From Alistipes sp. (lineage in GTDB: Bacteria > Bacteroidota > Bacteroidia > Bacteroidales > Rikenellaceae): DNA of 54,826 nucleotides. The stretch is from positions 1 to 54,826 of the forward strand of contig JAGCLL010000054.1 of assembly GCA_017647025.1 (NCBI GenBank), written 5' to 3'. A program made the translations under genes and the position numbers. Within the stretch, counting starts at the first letter, position 1; every line of letters starts with the position of its first letter. Positions 9,180 to 32,626 of this stretch are shown here, one piece after another. Under the pieces are notes generated by a model, which had not been told where the DNA came from, made no database searches, and was given only the letters and a program-made list of their open reading frames with translations.

Positions 9180-9212
9180 AACACCCCCTGCAAATAAAAA
9201 TGCAAGGGGGTG
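9178..9212 (-). terminator. Terminator of the nuclease/TonB operon
   Basis: CACCCCCTGCA (9182-9192) pairs with TGCAAGGGGGTG (9201-9212) with one bulged base; on the minus strand the hairpin is followed by TTTTTG. It lies about 25 bp after the stop codon of the DUF5689 gene, the last gene of the five-gene operon. Confidence 0.85.
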
Positions 9213-9237: not shown

Positions 9238-10755
9238 TTACTCGATTGTCTCGGTATCCTCCACAACCTGCTGTGGCAAGAGATATGACTCCTCTGGCGT
9301 CTTCTCCAAAACCCATACTACCCAATCAGCCCACTCGTTCCAAGCAGCCCAAGTAGGTGTATTATCATTTTCTGGCTTGTTTGCAAGATAGGTACTCTTC
9401 CACGCCTCCACTGCTGCTGCACGAGCCTCAGGGTCCGGAGTTACAGGATAGACATAGTGAGGGAAGTTATCTTCCGCCCACTTGATAAGTTTGCTCCACG
9501 CAGGCGAAGGCTCGGTTGGCTCTGTCTTAATCTGCATATCCTCGATGCGGTTGATAGCAATCTGATATGTTGACCAATCGTTTGAACTTCCCGTATAATC
9601 AGACTTCTGTGCATAGATTTGGAAGATAGCCAATACATCGCCACTCATTCCGTGCTTTGGTGCATATTTACCTGCAAAACGAGAGTAACCACTCGTACGA
9701 AGCATATAGACACCGTGCTCAGAGGTGTATTTTGGCTGCGATTTGTATGTAAGGCAAATGCTACCATACAACGCAACATTGTTCATACTATACGCCATAT
9801 GATACCAAGGCTTATTGAGCGACACCTCCACTGTTCCACCAGGAGTTGTAGGAAGTGATGCCTGTATTCCACTTGTGCAGAGCCACGATGGGTACAACTG
9901 CGCATATTGTCCGTTTGCAATAGTCGGATTTTGTGTAATGTTACCATTTGCATCTGGATAGTCAACACCCGCATAGTAGACCGTCAAATTCTTGAATCGA
10001 ATCAAACGACCAAGGAATCGCTCGGTATTCGAGCCGTGAATTTTCGAGTATGAGTTTTCGTCTACTACAAAGATGTCTGCACTTTCGTCGGTAGAACTCT
10101 CGGTGAGAGTGGTCTTCTCGCCGACAAATACATGCTGACGCACTCTATTTTGGCTTACAAGGTTCGAGTTTGCGTAGTACTTGTAATTTCCATACGAGTT
10201 GTAACTCGAAGTTGGAATATCGCCCAACGAGAGCATCATACGGAAGTTACCAAGGTACAAACCGCGCAACTTAACATATACCCAAACCGATTCGCCAGTA
10301 TCGAGGTTGCAAGGATAGTCCATATACAAGCCATTGACCAACTTCAACTCGATAGCCTCCGTACCATCGAAAATATAGAGCGACTTGTAGATATTACCCT
10401 GCTCATCGTTCGAGATAACCTTACCCTTAATATAGTAGTTACCTGTATCGAAACACTTTGTATCAATCTCATACTGGGTACACTCCTTCTCTTTTGCAAC
10501 AAAACGAAGATACTTTGTATCGGACTCACCCTTATTGATACCAGTCGAACTTAACGATCCAAATTTATTGATAAACTTATCCTTCAACTCGGCAATAGAG
10601 ATATGCTGTATACCCGGATTAACCGCCTCGAAAACCTCATCATTGTAGATTGTCGGAGCCTCAGGCATCTCAAAATCATTGTAGCAAGCGGTCAATACCA
10701 AACCGAGCAATGCTACCAAAATCATCTTATACTGTTTCATAAATTTTTCTCTCAT
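9238..10755 (-). CDS. DUF5689 domain surface lipoprotein
   Basis: 505-residue lipoprotein. The signal peptide ends in the lipobox LTAC, with Cys24 followed by YNDFE; an internal ATG at 10740 gives a more compact signal peptide and may be the real start. Residues about 50-270 show the DUF5689 pattern: ISIAELK, then IKGKVISNDEQGNIYKSLYI and a GESVWVYVKLRGLYLG strand, an OB-fold-like layout. The last 90 residues carry eight tryptophans and an acidic end. The gene lies 15 bp after the TonB-dependent receptor, the position occupied by SusD-type ligand-binding partners, but no SusD fold is recognisable. I infer that it is the surface partner of the receptor, possibly presenting nucleic-acid fragments. 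Last gene of the operon. Confidence 0.82.
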   Translation of the reverse strand: MREKFMKQYKMILVALLGLVLTACYNDFEMPEAPTIYNDEVFEAVNPGIQHISIAELKDKFINKFGSLSSTGINKGESDTKYLRFVAKEKECTQYEIDTKCFDTGNYYIKGKVISNDEQGNIYKSLYIFDGTEAIELKLVNGLYMDYPCNLDTGESVWVYVKLRGLYLGNFRMMLSLGDIPTSSYNSYGNYKYYANSNLVSQNRVRQHVFVGEKTTLTESSTDESADIFVVDENSYSKIHGSNTERFLGRLIRFKNLTVYYAGVDYPDANGNITQNPTIANGQYAQLYPSWLCTSGIQASLPTTPGGTVEVSLNKPWYHMAYSMNNVALYGSICLTYKSQPKYTSEHGVYMLRTSGYSRFAGKYAPKHGMSGDVLAIFQIYAQKSDYTGSSNDWSTYQIAINRIEDMQIKTEPTEPSPAWSKLIKWAEDNFPHYVYPVTPDPEARAAAVEAWKSTYLANKPENDNTPTWAAWNEWADWVVWVLEKTPEESYLLPQQVVEDTETIE

Positions 10756-10770
10756 TTTTCGGTTTGACTT

Positions 10771-13761
10771 TTAGAATCGGAAGTAGACATTTACGAAGCA
10801 AGTTGTGCCAAGCATATAGAAGTACTTCGAGTCGAAACGAGTGTAATATGTTGTAGATGGATTAGACGAGTAAACCAACTTACCACCATCACCCTGCTTG
10901 TATCCATATCCACGCACCTTACGCATACGCATCTGCTCGTAACCACCTGTGCGGAAGCCCTTATTATTGAGGAGGTTCTTAACCTCAGCACTGAAACCGA
11001 TAGTGTACTTACGCTTAATATACCAGTTCTTACCAACACTCGCAGCCAAAGTATAAGCGTGTCCCAAATCCTCCTGCGCACGAATTGCATTCATCGAGTT
11101 CAAAGCCCAATTCTTCTGCTCTTGTGAACTGCTATCTGCCAAGAATACTCTCTTATATGGCGCAATAGCATTCTCGGTACGATATGCAGGGTTCATCGAG
11201 AGGTACAACTTGTCGTAGTAGTTGAAGTTAATCGATGCAAACCAACTCTTTGGACCACGGAAGTCAAGACCTACATTCACTGCAAACTGTGGAGTGCTCT
11301 CAACATAGAAACCTTTCCAATCTACTGTATCGGTCAATTTTACCTCGTTGCTATTATCAACGGTCTGTACGAAGTTAGGGTTCGAAGTGTAGCGATAGTC
11401 GCCATAGTTCAATGCTCCCTGCAATGCCAAACCATTCCATATTGGAACACGCACTGCAACCTCGACACCCATATAGCGTTTATCGATATTACTCATTGCA
11501 AAGTTTGTAAACGAAGCCTGCGTATCATCGTAGAACGAAATAACCTTCGATGCGTTGGTCATCTCGGTAAAGTAACCCGCTACACGAGCCTGGATATATG
11601 GCAAGTTGAGGTTATAAACCAACTCTGCGCTATATGCCTGCTCAGGAGTCAAACCAGGAGTAATAGTATTACGGGTACGAGGCGACACGAATGCCGAGTT
11701 AAATGTTGGAGCATCCTGAACTGCGCCCAAATTCAACGCCAAGTGGTGAGCCTGCGAGAAACGATACGAGAAGGCAGCCTTTGCCTTATAGGTCAAGAAG
11801 TTCAAATGTTCAGAATCGCCCTTTGAGTTATCGGCAAACAAGCCCTTGCGCCACAAACCCTGACGCCACAAACCAGCATAACCTACCTCTGCGCCTACAT
11901 TCATCTCGAAACCGCCAGTACGATACTCGTACATAGCCCACAACTGTGTCTGACGCACGTGAGCAAAGTAGTCATACGAGAATTTGTCGCCCTCTTTAAC
12001 AATGCGTGCGTGACCGTGCTCGTTGTAGTAGTCGAGGTCGTTCTGATACTTTACAGGGTCACTACCCATATCACGCTCTGCGAACTTATCAACATCTACC
12101 CAGAAATCACCACCTAACAAATCCTTAATTTTGTCGTAGTACTCAGTGCGGTTAACACGAGCCTTAATACCCGCCAAAAGGTGGTGGTTAGCGTTGAAAT
12201 CGTGCGAGATATTTGCCGCAAAGTTGTAGTCAATCTGGTCGGTATGACGCTCCTCAATCATATAGTTAGAACGGTGTCCTTGCGCATCGCCATACGCAGA
12301 GCCGTTCTTATTCGAGTTAATCATATTGTCGAAGTCAATACGACCATTCCATACCGAGCGAGCATCTGCAGCAGCCTGCAAATATGAATATATTTGGCTA
12401 TCGCTCGATGCTGTAAAGATGTCCGAAATAGCAATGTTCGGAGTTCCTGCACGATGAGCCATTATTGCCTCATTCAACAATCCAAGATTATGCAACTCTT
12501 TGAAATTCTTTGTGTAGAACTTCGTAAAGCCATCACTATCAGTAAGAATCTGTGTAGTATAGTTCGACGGCAAGAAACGATAGTAATCAGGACGAGGATC
12601 CGATCCATCTTTCCAAGTCAAAGCCGAATAACCATTAAAACCGAAGCGCACCGAAGTTGCCGCAGTCAGACGAGTCTTCTCGCTGATGTCGTAGTAGTAG
12701 TTCAACATCACAATAGGCTCGTGCGAACGACGCACACGGGTGTTTCGCAACTTACCATCCTGGAAACCTACATTCGGATTGTAGTAGTTGCTGCCAAACA
12801 TATCGTAAGCCTCCTGTGTTGATGCCTGCTGTGCACCACGCTGCTGCGGAGTACCGAGAATCATCAACGACAAACGATGCTGTGGGTTAAACTGCTTCTC
12901 TGCTGCTGCGAAGTAGCCATACGAGTTGTAGTAAACTCCATCTACATAGCCATTTCCGCCCTGACGAGTCGATGCCGAGAATGCAAACGACCAACCATTG
13001 TCGAGTTGACCTGTTGCATACGAAACAATCGCACGGAAAGCATACATCTGATTACCACCCGACACACTTGCACGGAAGCCCTTGCGCATCTGCGAAGCAC
13101 GGGCGTTGATGTTTGTAGCACCACCAAAGCCTCCTACTCCGTAGTCGGTAGAGGTCAAACCTGCGGCACTCTCCTGATTGCGAGTAGCATCGTTCATACC
13201 ACTCCACAACGACCAAGGACCATAGCCAGTCAAAGCATCGTTGAAACGAATACCATTGAGATAGACATCGGTATACTTCGAGTCGTAGCCACGCACATTG
13301 AAGCGCATCTCGCTAAAACGGTACGATGCAATGTTGTTGTACAAATCTTTCGAGGCTGCAAGCGACGACGGCAACGCCTGAGTATCCGAAGCAGAAGAGT
13401 CGTTGTCGAACTCTGCAAAAATCGAATCATCGAGCATCTCGCCAGTAACTGCCTTTGGTACGATAATCACGGTATTGATATCCTTCACATTATTCTCCAC
13501 CTTGACAACAATATCGAGGTTTTCGAACTCAGGTGCCGCAAACGAAAGTTTGTAGTCACCCGCAGGCACACCCTGCAATACAAAGTAGCCATCATCGTTG
13601 GTTGTAGCCTTGAAGGTGGTACCTTCAATCGTTACCGCAACATTTCCAACAGCCGCACGGCCGTTGCGTGACAACACCCTACCCTTCAAGCCACTCTCCT
13701 GTGCGAAAGCAGAAGAAACGAGCAGTGTCATTGCCGCAATAAGCAAAAATTTAAGTTTCAT
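10771..13761 (-). CDS. TonB-dependent outer-membrane receptor
   Basis: 996-residue receptor. Signal peptide 1-20 (ends SSAFA), carboxypeptidase-regulatory-like beta-sandwich at about 24-100 (LKGRVLSRNGRAAVGNVAV), plug domain at about 125-230 (RFNVRGYDSKYTDVYLNGI, typical of plugs), then a 22-strand barrel ending in FVNVYFRF with the C-terminal phenylalanine required for outer-membrane insertion. It imports a ligand across the outer membrane using TonB-ExbBD energy. It sits between the EEP nuclease gene (27 bp) and the DUF5689 lipoprotein gene (15 bp), so all are co-transcribed; the two nuclease genes suggest nucleotides or oligonucleotides as ligand. Its barrel is clearly homologous to the protein at 30173-32626. 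Confidence 0.93.
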   Translation of the reverse strand: MKLKFLLIAAMTLLVSSAFAQESGLKGRVLSRNGRAAVGNVAVTIEGTTFKATTNDDGYFVLQGVPAGDYKLSFAAPEFENLDIVVKVENNVKDINTVIIVPKAVTGEMLDDSIFAEFDNDSSASDTQALPSSLAASKDLYNNIASYRFSEMRFNVRGYDSKYTDVYLNGIRFNDALTGYGPWSLWSGMNDATRNQESAAGLTSTDYGVGGFGGATNINARASQMRKGFRASVSGGNQMYAFRAIVSYATGQLDNGWSFAFSASTRQGGNGYVDGVYYNSYGYFAAAEKQFNPQHRLSLMILGTPQQRGAQQASTQEAYDMFGSNYYNPNVGFQDGKLRNTRVRRSHEPIVMLNYYYDISEKTRLTAATSVRFGFNGYSALTWKDGSDPRPDYYRFLPSNYTTQILTDSDGFTKFYTKNFKELHNLGLLNEAIMAHRAGTPNIAISDIFTASSDSQIYSYLQAAADARSVWNGRIDFDNMINSNKNGSAYGDAQGHRSNYMIEERHTDQIDYNFAANISHDFNANHHLLAGIKARVNRTEYYDKIKDLLGGDFWVDVDKFAERDMGSDPVKYQNDLDYYNEHGHARIVKEGDKFSYDYFAHVRQTQLWAMYEYRTGGFEMNVGAEVGYAGLWRQGLWRKGLFADNSKGDSEHLNFLTYKAKAAFSYRFSQAHHLALNLGAVQDAPTFNSAFVSPRTRNTITPGLTPEQAYSAELVYNLNLPYIQARVAGYFTEMTNASKVISFYDDTQASFTNFAMSNIDKRYMGVEVAVRVPIWNGLALQGALNYGDYRYTSNPNFVQTVDNSNEVKLTDTVDWKGFYVESTPQFAVNVGLDFRGPKSWFASINFNYYDKLYLSMNPAYRTENAIAPYKRVFLADSSSQEQKNWALNSMNAIRAQEDLGHAYTLAASVGKNWYIKRKYTIGFSAEVKNLLNNKGFRTGGYEQMRMRKVRGYGYKQGDGGKLVYSSNPSTTYYTRFDSKYFYMLGTTCFVNVYFRF

Positions 13762-13788
13762 ACTATTTATTTATATATGTTTAGTCTA

Positions 13789-14820
13789 TTATTTCGAAAT
13801 ATAGATATATACCGGGAAGTGGTCGCTATATCCGTTCTGGAAGTTCGAGCCCACGAACGAACGCAATGGATAGTTCTTATACTGTCCCTCTTTCTGCACC
13901 ATATACGGAGCAATAAAGATATTTCCGTAGAACTTCGCACCCTCCGCCTTCTGAACTTTCAATGCTCCGGTCGAGCCAGTTGCCAAGTTCTCCGACACCA
14001 CGATATTGTCGAACAAGTTCCACGCATCACGATATGCCAAAGTGCCATATCCAGCCTTCAACATAGCATAGAATGGGTTGTACATATCGTTTGGTTCCAA
14101 CTTTTTGAGGTTGCCCTTTGCTCCAAGCACATCCACTACACTAGCATCGGTAGCGTCATCGTTGAAGTCGCCCATAATCACCACCTTGGTTGCAGGGTTT
14201 ACTGTACGCACCGAGTCGCAGATATGTTTACACTTTGCCGCAACAAAATCACGAGAGTGTTGCGAGCGCTCCTTACCACCGAGGCGTGAAGGCCAGTGCG
14301 ATACGATAAAGTAGAATGGCTCGCCCTCGATTTTGCCCCACATAGCCACCAAATCACGAGTGAGGAAGTTCGGACGACCAGGGAATGAGATGCGATGCGC
14401 CTCCGAGCCCTCCAAATGGAATTGGTCGGGACGATAGAAGAATGCGCAATCTACACCACGACGGTCAGGCGAGTCGTAGTGTACAATGCGATAGTTTGTG
14501 CGTGCAAACTTTGGGGTTGCAAGCAAATCCTCCAACACGAGGCGATTTTCAATCTCCGACACACCAATTACGGTTGGGAAATTCTTATCCTTGGCTGCGA
14601 TATCGAACAAAACTCTCGACATATTAGCCTGCTTTTGGTTGTAGCGGTAGGTTGTCCACTTGCGAGCACCCTCAGGGAGATACTCCTCGTCGTTCTTGTT
14701 CGGGTCATTGATAGTATCGAACAAGTTTTCGAGGTTGTAGAATACCACCTTGTAGGGTTTCTGCGCAATAGCCACCAACATTGCGCCAACCAAACATACT
14801 GATAAAAGTAGTTTTTTCAT
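13789..14820 (-). CDS. Secreted endonuclease/exonuclease/phosphatase family protein
   Basis: 343-residue protein of the EEP (DNase I-like) superfamily with a signal peptide at 1-19 (MLVAIAQ). Family motifs are all visible: FYNLENLFD near the start (catalytic Asn), GVSEIENR (metal-binding Glu), SHWPSRLGG (catalytic His region), MGDFNDDATD (Asp/Asn), and the terminal YSDHFPVYIYI (Asp-His pair). Members cleave DNA, RNA or phosphoester groups using Mg2+. Export places it in the periplasm or on the surface. It starts 3 bp after the endonuclease stop codon and 27 bp before the TonB receptor start, so it belongs to the operon. Whether it acts as exonuclease, nucleotidase or phosphodiesterase cannot be told from sequence. 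Confidence 0.9.
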   Translation of the reverse strand: MKKLLLSVCLVGAMLVAIAQKPYKVVFYNLENLFDTINDPNKNDEEYLPEGARKWTTYRYNQKQANMSRVLFDIAAKDKNFPTVIGVSEIENRLVLEDLLATPKFARTNYRIVHYDSPDRRGVDCAFFYRPDQFHLEGSEAHRISFPGRPNFLTRDLVAMWGKIEGEPFYFIVSHWPSRLGGKERSQHSRDFVAAKCKHICDSVRTVNPATKVVIMGDFNDDATDASVVDVLGAKGNLKKLEPNDMYNPFYAMLKAGYGTLAYRDAWNLFDNIVVSENLATGSTGALKVQKAEGAKFYGNIFIAPYMVQKEGQYKNYPLRSFVGSNFQNGYSDHFPVYIYISK

Positions 14821-14823
14821 AGG

Positions 14824-16122
14824 TTAATTATTGTTTATGTCTGAAAATTTCCAACTGTAAAAATCACACTGTCGCTTCACCTCGCCAGCAATCGTCGGGT
14901 GAAGATTTCTGAAAAATTCTAAACCGCCGGTGCGACGCTCAATCTCCGCTACCGACACCGCAGCATCTTTCAACGAAGTATCCTTGGCAGCCGAGTTATT
15001 CTCAAAGATAAAACCGATGCACATCAACTCGTCGGCCGAGGTAATCTCGCTAATATGCTTGCCAGTTGAGCCTTTCTTGGTGCGCAGCAACAACTTGTAG
15101 CAGTGCGATGGCACCGATATGGTGCGACCATTCTTACTTACGGTCTTATTCTTCTCGAAGAGCGTTCCAACAACAACAAATAGCGTATCAGAGCAAATTT
15201 TTGTACGCACATTATTCTCTAAAACCGCCCAGGAGCCACTATTAAAGTCGTAGTCCTGCGCCATAATGTTTGTCGAGTAGCAAGTCTGCGCATTTGTGTT
15301 CCAAGTGTTGTAACGGTCTGCCGATGGGAGCATATGTCCACGAGCATAACCGCCACCTATGCCACTATTGAAGCGAATATCCGCCTGCTTCGACTGCGGA
15401 ATAATCGGCTCGGTGTAGGTGTCATAAGCATCTTTTCCTGCGAGATAGGTACTCACAATCTCGTATGCTGTGCTCCAATTTGAACTATATTTATACTGCG
15501 TTACCGCATCATCAAAAGCCCACGCATTTGTACGACCTGCGGTAGTACCACCAACTTTATAACTTCGTCCCGAAGTGTAGACCGGGTGTGCTGGATATGC
15601 CACCCAACGGGAGCATATTTTGTCCGTATCGTAACATACCGAGAAGTTGCGCACTCGCCTACCATCCGAAAGAGTGGTATAGTAGGTCTTATGAACGAGC
15701 GACACTCCCTCTTGATAGTCGGGTTGCTCGCCCCACGCCTTGTCGTAGTCGGGATTTTTGGTTTTGGCAAGTTGGCGAATAGTAAAAATTTTGGTGTAGC
15801 CGTCGCTAAAAGTTATACACACCTGAGCCATACGCTCCGTCTCGCCACTATTCTTGTCGAATTTCAGAGCGAAAGGATTTCCAACTGTACCAAATCGATT
15901 TACCACCGAGCAGAACTCCCCACCCTGCAACACTTCCAAAGTCCACTTATACGAAGGCTCGCCAGTTGTTGCGCCCGATAAAGTAGTCTCACGATAATCC
16001 AATATCTTGGCAGATATAGTAGCAATAGATTCGTATGGCGACCAATCATCGACCACCGCACACCCCATAAAAGAGAGTGTAAGCACCAACATAGCAACTA
16101 CGCTACGGTTGATGCTCCTCAT
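14824..16122 (-). CDS. DNA/RNA non-specific endonuclease lipoprotein (NUC family)
   Basis: With the ATG at 16122 the protein has 432 residues and a compact lipoprotein signal peptide ending in MGC; the frame could extend 16 codons further to a TTG at 16170, which I consider less likely. After the signal comes a beta-rich domain (about residues 30-135) with BACON-like features ending ITFSDGYTKIFTIRQL, then the bba-metal nuclease domain with YARGHMLPSADR, the Bacteroidota form of the DRGH active-site motif holding the general-base His, followed by the Mg2+-binding Asn region (STNIMAQ, LENNVR). It cuts DNA and RNA without sequence preference. As a lipoprotein it is probably surface or periplasm exposed. 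It is second in the operon. Confidence 0.9.
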   Translation of the reverse strand: MRSINRSVVAMLVLTLSFMGCAVVDDWSPYESIATISAKILDYRETTLSGATTGEPSYKWTLEVLQGGEFCSVVNRFGTVGNPFALKFDKNSGETERMAQVCITFSDGYTKIFTIRQLAKTKNPDYDKAWGEQPDYQEGVSLVHKTYYTTLSDGRRVRNFSVCYDTDKICSRWVAYPAHPVYTSGRSYKVGGTTAGRTNAWAFDDAVTQYKYSSNWSTAYEIVSTYLAGKDAYDTYTEPIIPQSKQADIRFNSGIGGGYARGHMLPSADRYNTWNTNAQTCYSTNIMAQDYDFNSGSWAVLENNVRTKICSDTLFVVVGTLFEKNKTVSKNGRTISVPSHCYKLLLRTKKGSTGKHISEITSADELMCIGFIFENNSAAKDTSLKDAAVSVAEIERRTGGLEFFRNLHPTIAGEVKRQCDFYSWKFSDINNN

Positions 16123-16240
16123 TGCAGAGAATATGTTTTTCAATGTATTCAAAAGTGTGTCAATTGTCAATTTTTAATTGCAATTAATTTAGTACCCAAG
16201 GCAGGTAATCAGCCTGCCTTGGATTAAAATTATATCAAAA

Positions 16241-18931
16241 TTATTTGATATGAGCACCTACAATAAGTGCACGACCAGACGAGTTGTTGCTAGCTGTTCC
16301 ATATTCTGGATCTGTCGAGAATTGCAACTTCGATGTTGCAGTTAGACCTGTCAAAGGAACAGTATGATACTCACTCTCCACGAATGTAATAGCATATGGC
16401 TCAGAATTTGCTGCACCAGAGTTGCCACTCAAATCAATAACAGCCAAATTCTCGGTTGCACCTTCAAGACGGATATAGAGTTTTGCGCTCTTACCATTCC
16501 AAGCACAAGCATAGAACTCCAAGGTTGCATCTCCCTCTTTGTTCAACTCGCCAGATGTAAAAGTGCCAGCGTAAGAACCTGTACCCAACTTGAATCCATT
16601 ACCATTAGGTTCTGCTGCGCCATTTACCTTTGTACTGCAAGTATATCCACGAGTAGTGTTGTTAGAAGTCAAAGTCAAAGCCGCATCCGATGTAAAATTA
16701 TAATCTGTAGCCTCACCCTGCTCTGGTTGCTCTGGCTCAGGAGTAGTTGGAGTCGATGGAGTACCACCTACAATGTGAGCACCTACAACGATTGCACGAC
16801 CACTTGAGCTATTATTTACCTTAGAGAATGAAGCGTCAGTTGCAAATTCAAATACCGTATTAGCAGTAACACCTGAAACCTCTACCGAATAGTAATCCTC
16901 ATCAGTAACCGTCATTGTATACGGAGAGGAGCTTGTTGCGCCATCATTTGCCTTCAAAGTGAACTGGCCGAGAAGGTCAGTCGAGCCCTGCTTACGAACA
17001 TACAAAGTTGCACTCTTACCCTTCCAAGCAACAGCATAGAACTCCAAAGTTACATCACCCTCTACGGCAACAGGCTGCGATGCGAAGTAACCGGATAGGC
17101 TACCTGTACCAATCTTGAAGCCACTCATTTTAGAGCCATTTGCTGTTCCGTCAGCAGTATAGTTTTGAGTCGAATCTACAAACGGAGCATCAGAGATAAA
17201 GTCATAGTCCCCTGGCACAACTGGAACATCAGTAGAACCCTTCTCGGCAACCTTCACATTCTTAACCTCCCAAGTACCAGCAGCCTCGGCTGTCGAAGTG
17301 TACTTGAAGCCAATCTGAATAGTCTTGCCTACATAAGCAGAGAGGTCAATATCACCCGACTCTACCCAATTCCAACCATCGTTCTTACCGTGCTGAGGAA
17401 TTTCGAGTACAGTCCATTCAGTTGCAGTAGACTCCTTAACATTAACTGTGAAGCACTCAGCAGGAGTACCTGCATCCAACTTATTAACGAGGTGTGTAAA
17501 TGTAAGTACAGGAGTAGTTGCACCGGTCATATTGATTTTTGGAGATACCAACCAACTCTCTGCTGCATAAGCAGCATTATTGTAGGCACTACCCTTCATA
17601 TACTTATTTGATGCGTCGTACGACCATACATAAGATATACCCTCTGCGAGAGATACATTCTCAATAGTAAACTTACCCTGGCTTGTCGCAAAACTCTCTG
17701 CGTATGGATAAGTCTCAGGCTTTGAGCCCAACTGCGAAACCTTAACGGTCTTCTCTACACCATCAGCCGACAACTTAATCCAACCATCACGACCTTCCTC
17801 TCCGCTATTAGCGTTAACAGTGTAGGTCAAAGTGTTACCATCAACCGAAGCCTCTGCCACAACCTCACCATCGCAAGATACGCTTACCGCACCGGTTACA
17901 TTCAAAGTTCTGAAAGTAGCAGTAGCAGCAGTTACACCAGCAGCAGAAACTGAGGTAATATCCGCACAACTAATAATAGTCTCTGTTGTCTCAACTGAGT
18001 ATGGAAGAACATTCAAATAGTTGTATGTACCAGTAACATATCCCTTTACAACAACCTTTACGCCGTCGTAAACCTTATAATCTGCCACATTAACATAGTA
18101 CAATGAAGCCTGCTTGCTTGCACCCTCAATCGATACATTAGCATACGTACCAATAACGACAGTACCCTCAAACTGCACCTCCGAGCAAACTACATTATTG
18201 CCTACAAGTTTATCAACCGCCTCACCAGTAAGAACCTGAGGATTGTAAGCAACAGTATTACCTGTCGAAAGCACCTCGATTTGTGCAGGACCATCTGATG
18301 CCTTAGGATCAAACTGCAAAGCATTTGTCTCGTAACCCTGATAATGGAAAGGCTTACCGGTAACCATCAATCGTGTACCTACTTCGTGGTTGGTTACACC
18401 ATAGAGAACTACAGAACCAGTAGCATCAGTCAAGATAGAAGCCTTTGAGCCTTTTGCGCCAATCAATCCGCTAATTGTTACGCTCTCACCTGCTACCAAG
18501 TTTGCAATTTGAGTAGTTGCTACGCCCGCTGCATTCTGGCTAATAGTAAATGTAAGGTTCTCCTCTTCATTTTGTACACCTATACCAGGATAGGTGGTTT
18601 TCTTCAAGAAGTTGAAGAGCAAAGTAACGATACGATCACCCTCGTATGCAGGGACAGTAACGGTAACTGTTGCATTACCCTTACCACTCAATGGAGTAAC
18701 AACGATGTCGCTGTGCTCCTCCGGAACTACAACACTCCACGAACCATTCGATGTAAGTTCAACAGTTGCTGTCTTCTCCTCCGAAGAGAGCAGGGCCATA
18801 GCATTCTGCGACAATTCGTACACAAGAGGCTCGGAAGTTGCACCTTCACCCTCTTCATTTGGAGTACATCCCCATCCCGCAAACAGCATTGCTGCTCCGG
18901 CTACAAACGCAAAAAATTTTCTTGCCTTCAT
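16241..18931 (-). CDS. Large multidomain lipoprotein with C-terminal tandem repeat
   Basis: 896-residue lipoprotein: signal peptide with lipobox-like FAGWGC, Cys22 followed by TPNEEGEG. Domain order as seen: a BACON-type beta-sandwich (about 35-135, ending LTFTISQNAAG), an OB-fold-like region (about 140-320) starting IANLVAGESVTISG that resembles the YhcR/DUF5689-type OB folds, a second BACON-like unit (about 325-400, ending VEKTVKVSQLG), a choice-of-anchor-J-like jelly roll (about 405-565), and two copies of a domain of about 150 residues (575-723 and 743-896) joined by a Thr/Pro/Glu linker. No catalytic motif is visible; it looks like a surface binding and scaffold protein. It is first in the operon, 70 bp or more ahead of the endonuclease gene. 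Confidence 0.85.
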   Translation of the reverse strand: MKARKFFAFVAGAAMLFAGWGCTPNEEGEGATSEPLVYELSQNAMALLSSEEKTATVELTSNGSWSVVVPEEHSDIVVTPLSGKGNATVTVTVPAYEGDRIVTLLFNFLKKTTYPGIGVQNEEENLTFTISQNAAGVATTQIANLVAGESVTISGLIGAKGSKASILTDATGSVVLYGVTNHEVGTRLMVTGKPFHYQGYETNALQFDPKASDGPAQIEVLSTGNTVAYNPQVLTGEAVDKLVGNNVVCSEVQFEGTVVIGTYANVSIEGASKQASLYYVNVADYKVYDGVKVVVKGYVTGTYNYLNVLPYSVETTETIISCADITSVSAAGVTAATATFRTLNVTGAVSVSCDGEVVAEASVDGNTLTYTVNANSGEEGRDGWIKLSADGVEKTVKVSQLGSKPETYPYAESFATSQGKFTIENVSLAEGISYVWSYDASNKYMKGSAYNNAAYAAESWLVSPKINMTGATTPVLTFTHLVNKLDAGTPAECFTVNVKESTATEWTVLEIPQHGKNDGWNWVESGDIDLSAYVGKTIQIGFKYTSTAEAAGTWEVKNVKVAEKGSTDVPVVPGDYDFISDAPFVDSTQNYTADGTANGSKMSGFKIGTGSLSGYFASQPVAVEGDVTLEFYAVAWKGKSATLYVRKQGSTDLLGQFTLKANDGATSSSPYTMTVTDEDYYSVEVSGVTANTVFEFATDASFSKVNNSSSGRAIVVGAHIVGGTPSTPTTPEPEQPEQGEATDYNFTSDAALTLTSNNTTRGYTCSTKVNGAAEPNGNGFKLGTGSYAGTFTSGELNKEGDATLEFYACAWNGKSAKLYIRLEGATENLAVIDLSGNSGAANSEPYAITFVESEYHTVPLTGLTATSKLQFSTDPEYGTASNNSSGRALIVGAHIK

Positions 18932-29156: not shown

Positions 29157-30173
29157 ATGGCAGGTTCGAATTTCGTAGATTATGTAAAGATATTCGCTCG
29201 TTCGGGACACGGAGGAGCAGGCTCGGCACACTTCCGCAGAGAGAAGTTTGTCGCTTTTGGTGGCCCCGATGGCGGCGATGGCGGTAAGGGTGGCTCAATT
29301 ATTTTGCAGGGCGACCAGCAGTATTGGACTCTTATCCACTTGAAATATCAGCGTCACCAATTCGCAGAGGATGGCGAATGTGGTTCGGGCGCTCGTTCAC
29401 ACGGAAAGGACGCAAAGGATATCATTATTCCTGTACCTCTCGGCACGGTTGCCAAGCAGATTTTCACCGACGAGGAGACTGGCGAGACCTACACCGAGGT
29501 TGTAGGCGAGGTTACCGAGCACGGCGAGCAGTTGGTATTGCTGAAAGGTGGTCGTGGAGGTTTGGGCAACTGGCATTTCCGCACAGCTACAAACCAGGCT
29601 CCACGCTACTCACAACCAGGCGAGGAGGGCGCAGAGGGCGCATTTATCCTCGAATTGAAGGTGTTGGCAGATGTAGGTTTGGTAGGCTTCCCTAATGCGG
29701 GCAAGAGCACCCTACTTTCGGTTGTTTCGGCTGCGAAGCCAAAGATTGCGAACTACGCATTTACCACTTTGGAGCCAAATCTCGGCATCGTCGAGGTGCG
29801 TGATGGCCACTCGTTTGTAATGGCAGATATTCCAGGTATCATCGAGGGAGCGCACGAGGGCAAGGGCTTGGGAACTCGCTTCTTGCGCCATATCGAGCGA
29901 AATTCGAGTTTGCTATTTATGATTCCTGCCGATAGCGACGACATCAAGAAGGATTACGAGATTTTGCTCGGCGAGCTTACACAGTACAACCCTGAGCTTC
30001 TCGACAAGAATCGCATATTGGCAATCACAAAGTGCGATATGCTTGACGATGAGTTGATTGAGGAGATGAAGGCTCACTTGCCTGAGGGGGTAAAATCGGT
30101 ATTTATCTCTTCGGTTGCGGGCTTAAACATTGCAAAGTTAAAGGATATGTTGTGGGAGGCACTCCACGAATAA
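29157..30173 (+). CDS. obgE: Obg family GTPase
   Basis: 338-residue Obg/CgtA GTPase. The glycine-rich Obg fold is at 1-158 ([27 protein letters not shown]). The G domain follows with G1 GFPNAGKST (177-185), the switch region [12 protein letters not shown]3 [16 protein letters not shown] and G4 TKCDM. There is no C-terminal OCT domain, as usual in Bacteroidota. It binds the 50S ribosomal subunit and helps its assembly. The stop codon TAA overlaps the ATG of the next gene (TAATG), implying translational coupling to an outer-membrane protein, an unusual partner. Confidence 0.96.
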
Positions 30174-32626
30174 TGCGAGGCTTGCGCTACATACTTATCG
30201 TACTATTTCTTATAGGTTATAGAGGTCTCTCCGCACAGGAGTTCGACCTCTATGATTTTAGGTACTATAAACGATTTGAAACAGCCGAGGAGTTGCTTAC
30301 TCCCGAAGCAGACACTACTACGGTTGCAAAGTCTATTTTTGACCGCCATTTCTCCACCCTGACGCTCGACTACAACCTATTGATGATACGCTCATCAAGG
30401 CGTGGCGTAGCCCGATATAGAAGAGTAACAACGCTCAATGGAGTCGCCATTCCGTTTATAAGCGGAAGTTCGATTAGAGCCCTGCAACTATCACGAACTC
30501 AAAGCATTGACAGCCTTACTCTGCGTATTGACACATTGCGTAAAGTTCGTACCTCGACTGGAATATCGTTCTCATCACGCAACACGCCCTATTCTCTTTC
30601 ATTTGCAACTTCGCAGCGACTCGGCAAGCGATGGTCGCTCTCTGCAAATATGGTAGCCAGCACGGGCAACGACCTCCATATTAACGGACTCTTTGGCAAC
30701 GCTCTCGAAGCAAATGTCGTAGCATCAAAACTATTCGACAATAGCAGTACTCTATCGATGGCTCTATTCGCCAAACCATCAATGCGTAGCACTCGCCTGG
30801 CATCAACAGCAGAGGCATTTCGCTTAACAGGCAATAACCTCTATAACCCTGCGTGGGGCTATCAGAATGGCAAAGTGCGCAATGCCCGCATAAGGCGTGA
30901 GTTTCTACCAACGGTATTTGTTGGCTATGAGGGCAAAATTTCGGAGCATACAAAATTCAACATTGCCACCGCAACTACTATCGGTGTAGAAAAGTATAGT
31001 TCGCTTGACTGGTTTGATGCGCAAACGCCTGCGCCCGACAACTACCGTTATATGCCGAGTTATTTCGATGACGAGGAGGATATATTTCACGCTGTCGAGA
31101 GCGCTTGGTTGACAGATAACCCTCACTACACGCAGATTGATTTCGACCGACTTATTGCCACCAATCTACTACATAATGGAGAGGCTGTTTACGCAGTCAG
31201 CGACCGAGTAAGGCGCACTATTCGCACTACCTTGCGTGGTGAGGCAACCACAACGCTCAAAAAAGGCTCAATCTCATACGGCATAGATATATCTACGGCT
31301 AATTATCGCAATTACAAGCAGATGCGTGATTTACTCGGAGCAAAATACATTATCGACTTGGACTACTTTTTGCTCGACGATGATACTTTCGGCAACTCCC
31401 TGCAAAACAATCTTGCAACGCCAAATCGCCGTATCGCTGAGGGAGAGCGCTTCGGTTACGACTACGCAATAAGGGAGTATCGAGGCTCGGCATTTGGCAC
31501 ATACCGCTACTCGACCGAGAGATTAAACCTGACCGTAGCGGCAAAAATTGGTTACGCCGATATTTCGAGGCGTGGATTTTATCGCAAGGAGTTATTTCCG
31601 GACAGTTCATTCGGCGCATCTCGGCATCTGAAATTCTCGCCCTATGCGCTACGCATTAAAGCAGGCTATATTATTGCTAATAAACATTTTATAGGCGGAA
31701 CAATCGCCACCGAAGCCACACCTGTCGAAAGTGAGGAACTCTTTTTGCAGAGCCAATACAACAATCGCACAATCGCAAATCCTACAATGCGCACAACATA
31801 CAATGCCGAGGTGCAGTATATGTTCCAACTACCCAACTTCAAACTCTCGACTACCCTCTTTGCTGGTGTGGAACTGAATGATACACAAGTGCGCCAACTC
31901 TACGACGACTTGTCCGCCGAGTATGCCGACATCGTAACAAGTAATATCAATACTCTGCGCTTTGGAGTAGATGTCGAGGCAGAATATCATTTTGCAGAGC
32001 ATTTTCGTGCCACCGCAGCCCTTACAGCAGGAAGATATAGTTATGCAACCAATTCAGCCATAACCATTTACACCGACACATCAAATATCCTTCTTGCTGA
32101 CCATATCGAGAGTCGCACCAAAGGGCTTTCGCTCGGCAACACTCCGCAGATTGTCGCAACTGTGGGACTATCGTATTACAATAAAGGTTGGTGGGCAACT
32201 CTAAATGCAAACTACGCAGGTCTGCGCTACATTGAGCCATCGGCAGTGATGCGTACCGAGCGAGTGTTGGCAATGGCTGTTTCGCCCGAACAGCGCTCTG
32301 CCCTCATAGAACAAGAGCGACTAAAAAATGCCTTTACCATCGATTTATCACTCTCCAAAACTCTTTACATAAGCCGTTTGAGCAAGAGAATTTACTCCAC
32401 CTCTGCCGCACCTCGTTTCGAGGATAGGCACCCGAAGAGTCGCCTGATTTTCCGTGTTGGAGTGCGCAATCTTCTCGGCTCAACCAACATTGTATATAAC
32501 GCCTACGAATCATCTCGCCTTCAACGATATAAACTCGCTGACGAGTACATATACAACCGCCAAGCATCGCGCTATCTCTACACATACCCTCGCACCTTCT
32601 ACGCCTCGGCAACATTTGCATTTTAG
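30173..32626 (+). CDS. TonB-receptor-like outer-membrane barrel with reduced plug
   Basis: 817 residues from the ATG overlapping the obgE stop. Signal peptide 1-22 (ends GLSAQ). There is no carboxypeptidase-regulatory domain, and the plug is reduced to about 40 residues (RSSRRGVARYRRVTTLNGVA), where the receptor at 10771-13761 has a full plug. From about residue 200 it aligns along its whole length with that receptor: NLYNPAWGYQNGKVRNARIRR, the DLLGAKYIIDLDYF segment, EGERFGYDYAIREYRG and GFYRKELFPDSSFGASRHL all have counterparts. It ends in YASATFAF with C-terminal Phe. It is probably an outer-membrane channel or adhesin derived from a TonB receptor; whether it still works with TonB is doubtful. 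Confidence 0.82.
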   Translation: MRGLRYILIVLFLIGYRGLSAQEFDLYDFRYYKRFETAEELLTPEADTTTVAKSIFDRHFSTLTLDYNLLMIRSSRRGVARYRRVTTLNGVAIPFISGSSIRALQLSRTQSIDSLTLRIDTLRKVRTSTGISFSSRNTPYSLSFATSQRLGKRWSLSANMVASTGNDLHINGLFGNALEANVVASKLFDNSSTLSMALFAKPSMRSTRLASTAEAFRLTGNNLYNPAWGYQNGKVRNARIRREFLPTVFVGYEGKISEHTKFNIATATTIGVEKYSSLDWFDAQTPAPDNYRYMPSYFDDEEDIFHAVESAWLTDNPHYTQIDFDRLIATNLLHNGEAVYAVSDRVRRTIRTTLRGEATTTLKKGSISYGIDISTANYRNYKQMRDLLGAKYIIDLDYFLLDDDTFGNSLQNNLATPNRRIAEGERFGYDYAIREYRGSAFGTYRYSTERLNLTVAAKIGYADISRRGFYRKELFPDSSFGASRHLKFSPYALRIKAGYIIANKHFIGGTIATEATPVESEELFLQSQYNNRTIANPTMRTTYNAEVQYMFQLPNFKLSTTLFAGVELNDTQVRQLYDDLSAEYADIVTSNINTLRFGVDVEAEYHFAEHFRATAALTAGRYSYATNSAITIYTDTSNILLADHIESRTKGLSLGNTPQIVATVGLSYYNKGWWATLNANYAGLRYIEPSAVMRTERVLAMAVSPEQRSALIEQERLKNAFTIDLSLSKTLYISRLSKRIYSTSAAPRFEDRHPKSRLIFRVGVRNLLGSTNIVYNAYESSRLQRYKLADEYIYNRQASRYLYTYPRTFYASATFAF

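Follow-up and report, generated by a model that had tools for sequence, protein, structure and literature searches.

A TonB-dependent receptor operon with nucleases in Alistipes sp., a probable nucleic-acid importer related to a transformation system of Riemerella anatipestifer

Introduction

In a stretch of 54,826 nucleotides from Alistipes sp. (contig JAGCLL010000054.1 of assembly GCA_017647025.1; the whole stretch is hereafter called the window), five minus-strand genes at 9238-18931 form an operon that probably encodes an outer-membrane nucleic-acid importer, driven by TonB and armed with nucleases, whose receptor-DUF5689-EEP core is shared with a system of Riemerella anatipestifer. In reading order, the genes encode a large lipoprotein-like protein (LP), a DNA/RNA non-specific endonuclease lipoprotein (NUC), an exported DNase-I-like enzyme (EEP), a TonB-dependent receptor, and a DUF5689 lipoprotein. 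An earlier note on this DNA had described a five-gene unit with short gaps and a terminator, all of which is confirmed here (the gaps are 70, 3, 27, and 15 bp). Its proposal that the unit handles nucleic acid is also well supported, by what the genes encode and by the genetic work on the R. anatipestifer homologues.

To our knowledge, the movement of DNA across the outer membrane in the Bacteroidota is largely unknown. Genetic studies of R. anatipestifer have named two proteins of unknown function in DNA import: RA0C_RS04915, a CarboxypepD_reg outer-membrane protein, and RA0C_RS04920, a DUF5689 protein with a choice-of-anchor J domain. The markerless deletion of either gene abolishes natural transformation (PMC8459023). 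Here, this pair is tied to a third conserved neighbour, EEP, and to the nuclease-bearing operons of gut Bacteroidales, which are not described in the accessible passages of that paper.

A Receptor Family Shared with R. anatipestifer

The R. anatipestifer genome (G636) was recognised by the exact match of a dprA primer printed in PMC8383284, which occurred in 1 of 296 family genomes and is there 49 bases away from the DprA domain match. Its receptor locus (L107:3945-18205) runs in the order RecA, four genes, ComEC, two genes, EEP, receptor, and DUF5689, with a gene spacing that agrees with the published locus tags. Because this spacing fits the tags, and because PMC8459023 names RS04910 as the gene upstream, we take the R. 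anatipestifer EEP, by position, to be RA0C_RS04910. Table 2 of the same paper gives no deletion of this gene.

The window receptor and the R. anatipestifer receptor are reciprocal best matches in the sets compared (the back-match being among five own-genome receptors), and they fall in one clade with a support of 98/99, with the R. anatipestifer paralogue outside. Judged from these comparisons, the window receptor belongs to the same family as the transformation receptor of R. anatipestifer, apart from the wider paralogue. In a second, quick tree, the window receptor lies in a clade of 21 rows, which also takes in a second receptor type and every row with NUC, and the R. anatipestifer receptor is placed among the other rows, far from its own paralogue. 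The paralogue clade joins by a long branch within other Bacteroidales rows, and because it attaches there, the outer border of the receptor family is not firm.

In the window, as in R. anatipestifer, the DUF5689 lipoprotein gene follows the receptor gene directly on the same strand. The two loci are alike in the receptor family, the downstream DUF5689, and the adjoining EEP. They differ in that the window EEP belongs to the operon, whereas that of R. anatipestifer is divergent, and in that the window has two more genes upstream, for NUC and for a separate large lipoprotein; furthermore, the receptors are 26% identical, comEC was not found in the window, and the host is without known transformation, a phenotype known for R. 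anatipestifer only. The earlier note had held that DUF5689 "in place of SusD" would make a distinct receptor type; the receptor-DUF5689 combination is no local novelty, being the conserved pair needed for R. anatipestifer transformation (PMC8459023). Because this pair is needed there, the import of polymeric DNA is pointed to. Entry as oligonucleotides or nucleosides, which the note had proposed, is therefore too narrow if those forms alone are meant, although the nutritional purpose is still favoured by the extra nucleases of the clade. It should be mentioned that transformation is also lowered in TonB mutants of R. anatipestifer, an effect of iron being offered as the explanation for tonBB (PMC8383284, PMC7965970).

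The Five Proteins and a Proposed Mechanism

The Pfam families matched in the unit are Endonuclease_NS, Exo_endo_phos_3, CarbopepD_reg (with a sub-threshold Plug), and DUF5689, and NCBIfam adds a choice-of-anchor J domain in LP. NUC matches PF01223 with 108 bits against a cut-off of 23, and aligns with the solved nucleases 2o3b, 1zm8, EXOG, and 1g8t, of which the first two are presumably Anabaena NucA and the last Serratia nuclease. Its residues R277, G278, H279, N301, and E318, which have catalytic roles, are kept in 67/67 aligned rows; the numbering follows the listed TTG start, and an in-frame ATG at 16122, giving 432 amino acids, is the likelier start. NUC shares the catalytic region and the RGH motif with the nucleases of this superfamily; unlike them, it is a lipoprotein, carries an extra N-terminal region, and is encoded in a receptor operon.

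In EEP, the active-site-like residues N29, E31, E89, E91, H175, D218, N220, D333, and H334 are kept in all 99 aligned rows (to two decimals), among which the R. anatipestifer gene was entered twice and a genome may recur in the unnamed and named sets. The R. anatipestifer EEP gave a weak, sub-threshold match to the extracellular DNases ExeM/NucH (5e-5, 22 bits against a cut-off of 300), whereas the window EEP, a stand-alone Exo_endo_phos_3 protein, gave none. The predicted fold of the receptor has the plug and barrel of TonB-dependent transporters. Comparison with solved structures gave no sequence relative at a useful E-value for EEP, LP, the receptor, or DUF5689 (for the last two, the rows were at chance level only), and a profile comparison of DUF5689 with the window LP gave no match. 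The C-terminal domain of LP is present as a tandem duplicate (residues about 575-896), the copies being 45% identical over 153 residues, and the relatives of LP at other loci have DUF5689, BACON, and OB-type domains.

By a simple pattern, a lipobox-like cysteine was found in 33/36 LP, 56/68 NUC, 57/67 DUF5689, 9/65 EEP, and 6/75 receptor sequences; the window's own LP was missed by this pattern. Acidic residues after the cysteine of a lipoprotein are an export signal for surface display. Because such residues follow the cysteine in most of the sequences concerned (31/33 LP, 43/56 NUC, and 53/57 DUF5689), surface display of these three proteins fits.

In the mechanism that we propose, LP, with its choice-of-anchor J domain, and the DUF5689 OB-fold lipoprotein would hold DNA or RNA at the cell surface, where NUC would nick and shorten it. 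The TonB-dependent receptor would then draw the still-polymeric pieces across the outer membrane, and the exported EEP would trim or dephosphorylate them in the periplasm. The imported material might be used as food and phosphate, for recombination via ComEC and DprA, or for both. The importer reading draws on gene content and on the genetics of homologues, and the present analysis supplies the gene order, the families, the catalytic residues, the predicted receptor fold, and the family shared with R. anatipestifer; we infer the cell-surface location, the direction of transport, the energy supply by TonB, and the division of labour between the nucleases.

Conservation of the Gene Order

Genomes drawn from the phylum and from the order were searched with the receptor as the query, at cut-offs of E 1e-20 and 1e-40, respectively. 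Matches were obtained in 90/296 genomes of the phylum draw, a count that includes the wider paralogue family, and in 143/295 genomes of the order draw. From the better matches, 20 genomes of the order and 20 of the class were then taken, and regions of at most 20 kb from each were compared, together with named relatives from a profile scan, of which the best 80 of 586 confirmed candidates were used, a choice biased to close relatives. B. pyogenes is present in both locus sets, and neighbour genes were called by tblastn with several references.

Among these best 80 named loci, EEP and NUC lie upstream of the receptor on the same strand in 74/74 with upstream room, and DUF5689- or LP-like genes are present in 74/74 with downstream room. 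The complete NUC-EEP-receptor-DUF5689 order occurs in 69/69 with room on both sides, so that the arrangement holds in other genomes as well as in this one, a check that the earlier note had proposed. Among 19 order loci with room, five have the NUC-EEP-receptor-DUF5689 order, a divergent EEP is present in 11, and EEP is missing from three, and among 19 class loci with room, NUC occurs in none and a divergent EEP in 16 (17 counting L100). DUF5689- or LP-like genes stand behind the receptor in 20/20 order loci and 19/20 class loci. The receptor-DUF5689 pair with an adjoining, mostly divergent EEP is the core across the class, R. anatipestifer included, and NUC is the mark of one Bacteroidales clade. 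NUC is linked to the receptor in a second arrangement too, because it lies downstream in two Porphyromonas relatives (G966 and G979, in the order receptor, DUF5689, LP, NUC) and in G381 and G482.

These arrangements bear on the view that the receptor and its lipoprotein serve some other ligand, such as a cofactor, and that the nucleases adjoin them for unrelated reasons, for example the degradation of biofilm DNA or defence. The model for such a system would be BtuB-BtuG of Bacteroides thetaiotaomicron, receptor-lipoprotein pairs for vitamin B12; the ligand of the window pair is presumed instead to be nucleic acid. However, in many families EEP adjoins the receptor, on one strand or the other, NUC is linked to it in two different gene orders, and the R. 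anatipestifer homologues have a transformation phenotype (PMC8459023); we consider another ligand improbable.

Membership in a SusC/SusD polysaccharide utilisation locus was rejected, since none of the unit proteins matched a SusC/RagA or SusD model at the thresholds used; this accords with the earlier note, which had set the receptor type apart from SusC/SusD. Such loci resemble the window unit in having a receptor, lipoproteins, and exported depolymerases in one operon, but the enzymes of the window unit are of nuclease families, and none of its five proteins is a glycoside hydrolase.

In rumen Bacteroidales, a Peptidase_M3 gene often stands behind DUF5689 (L143:13153-15165 and similar). This family matched in 11/68 scanned downstream proteins, a count that covers those 68 proteins, other open reading frames of like length lying mostly outside the scan. 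An open reading frame of ~670 amino acids downstream in many rumen loci was considered as ComEC and rejected: there was no ComEC match, and the scanned ones are Peptidase_M3.

Feeding or Gene Acquisition

The operon may be chiefly nutritional, its nucleases digesting environmental DNA and RNA and the fragments or nucleotides being imported as a source of carbon, nitrogen, purine/pyrimidine, or phosphate; the family shared with the R. anatipestifer gene would then mean a common transport chemistry, not a common purpose. The operon has two nuclease-family genes, of which NUC is clade-specific. The nearest relative among the best 80 of 586 (L110, Alistipes sp., with a receptor 76% identical in the best segment) has two more, tandem open S1/P1 nuclease genes at 13492-14340 and 14351-15166 (Pfam 1e-22 and 4e-29; 46% identical to each other), the first of them 60 bp behind DUF5689. 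Digestion is favoured in that relative because of these two genes; no similar DNA was found in the other loci of the 241 compared or in the window, so that they occur in 1 of the best 80 named loci. On the other hand, no nucleoside transporter, nucleotidase, or nucleoside phosphorylase was seen among the 25 commonest of 69 Pfam families in the 68 downstream proteins scanned, which is a weak objection, and the core pair has a transformation role elsewhere (PMC8459023). That paper was the only relevant one found on nucleic-acid nutrition or on this gene combination, in a search outside which most subscription papers lay.

Alternatively, the operon may be chiefly a competence apparatus, in which NUC would make fragments or single strands for import, followed by ComEC, DprA, and RecA. 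EndA of pneumococcus and NucA of Bacillus are entry nucleases of competence; NUC shares only the fold superfamily with enzymes of this kind. The receptor and DUF5689 homologues are essential for transformation in R. anatipestifer (PMC8459023), the ComEC and DprA families are present in the window's genome, and the EEP-receptor-DUF5689 locus of R. anatipestifer is a few genes away from recA and comEC. Homologues of the endonuclease that proved to be toxins or competence factors would, according to the earlier note, have refuted its proposal; this objection applies in part, for the receptor and lipoprotein and not for the endonuclease.

Several observations weigh against a general role in competence. 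At the other loci compared, a search of the retrieved flanks (up to about 9 kb) with R. anatipestifer ComEC as the query gave no ComEC, nor was the neighbourhood of recA and comEC seen there, and comEC linkage as a general feature was dropped as being seen in R. anatipestifer only. Because ComEC is near-universal in the order (282/295 genomes), its co-occurrence was rejected as a discriminating test; it was undetected in eight receptor-positive genomes, and its distribution does not track the receptor. In a genome that we assume, from a 16S primer, to be that of P. gingivalis, the main receptor was not found, the wider paralogue alone matching at E 1e-15, and DUF5689 was not found either. P. 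gingivalis is reported to be naturally competent (PMC11532111). R. anatipestifer transforms, yet Endonuclease_NS (PF01223) was not found in its genome, and attempts to transform F. johnsoniae failed under the conditions used (PMC8383284, PMC7965970). The results for P. gingivalis and for NUC in R. anatipestifer count at the same time in favour of nutrition. We lean towards scavenging as the chief use, which we hold to be quite possible though short of probable, and regard transformation as a rather unlikely chief use. The overall interpretation of the earlier note is partly supported: nucleic acid, the order conserved elsewhere, and the distinct receptor type stand; the receptor-DUF5689 pair is not peculiar to this locus, and nutrition is one of two candidate uses.

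Layout of the Window and a Second Receptor

The features of the window are collected in Table 1. The unit is flanked by dnaA upstream and an M16 peptidase gene downstream, and the source genome is incomplete (87%, 219 contigs).

Table 1. Positions of the features discussed in the window.
Feature	Position	Strand	Basis or remarks
LP, large lipoprotein-like protein, 896 aa	16241..18931	-	BACON-like region, choice-of-anchor J (412-561), duplicated C-terminal domain
Perfect 10-bp hairpin in the LP-NUC gap, no T run after it	16196..16222	-	RNA fold
NUC, DNA/RNA non-specific endonuclease lipoprotein, 448 aa as listed	14824..16170	-	Pfam, catalytic residues
EEP, exported Exo_endo_phos_3 (DNase-I-like) enzyme, 343 aa, no lipobox	13789..14820	-	Pfam, conserved residues
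Outer-membrane receptor of TonB-dependent-transporter fold, 996 aa, N-terminal CarbopepD_reg	10771..13761	-	Pfam, tree, predicted fold
DUF5689 lipoprotein, 505 aa, predicted OB-fold (residues 34-229)	9238..10755	-	Pfam, prediction
Intrinsic-terminator-like hairpin ending the five-gene unit	9184..9209	-	Sequence
Second, divergent receptor of the same family, 824 aa, beside Obg-family GTPase gene	30152..32626	+	No Pfam match at 0.01

The 70-base gap between LP and NUC folds at -22.7 kcal/mol (RNA fold, without shuffle control), and its hairpin may be a processing or attenuation site. Because the inverted repeat in this gap is perfect over 10 bp and has no T run, LP may be regulated apart from NUC-EEP-receptor-DUF5689.

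The Obg-family GTPase gene beside the second receptor lies at 29157-30173 on the plus strand. Two genomes of the window's family without a receptor match at 1e-40 (G407 and G506) have a receptor of this second type, with two DUF5689 domain matches behind it and an Obg-like gene nearby (L233 and L234). In the genome from which the window comes, a DUF5689 pair is located on a different contig (L232:4804-6295). The position of the window's second receptor in the trees is unsure because of its long branch.

Implications

It is tempting, though tentative, to see here a widespread, pilus-independent DNA importer of the Bacteroidota, consisting of a TonB-dependent receptor, OB-fold lipoproteins, and a DNase-I-like partner, to which gut and oral Bacteroidales would have added nucleases, so that one machine might serve both feeding and gene acquisition. 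The proteins described offer testable candidates for DNA import through TonB-dependent receptors and for the use of extracellular DNA in the gut. These observations suggest a little-known route by which Bacteroidota may import genetic material or feed on DNA and RNA, with a core that matches genes of a duck bacterium, R. anatipestifer.

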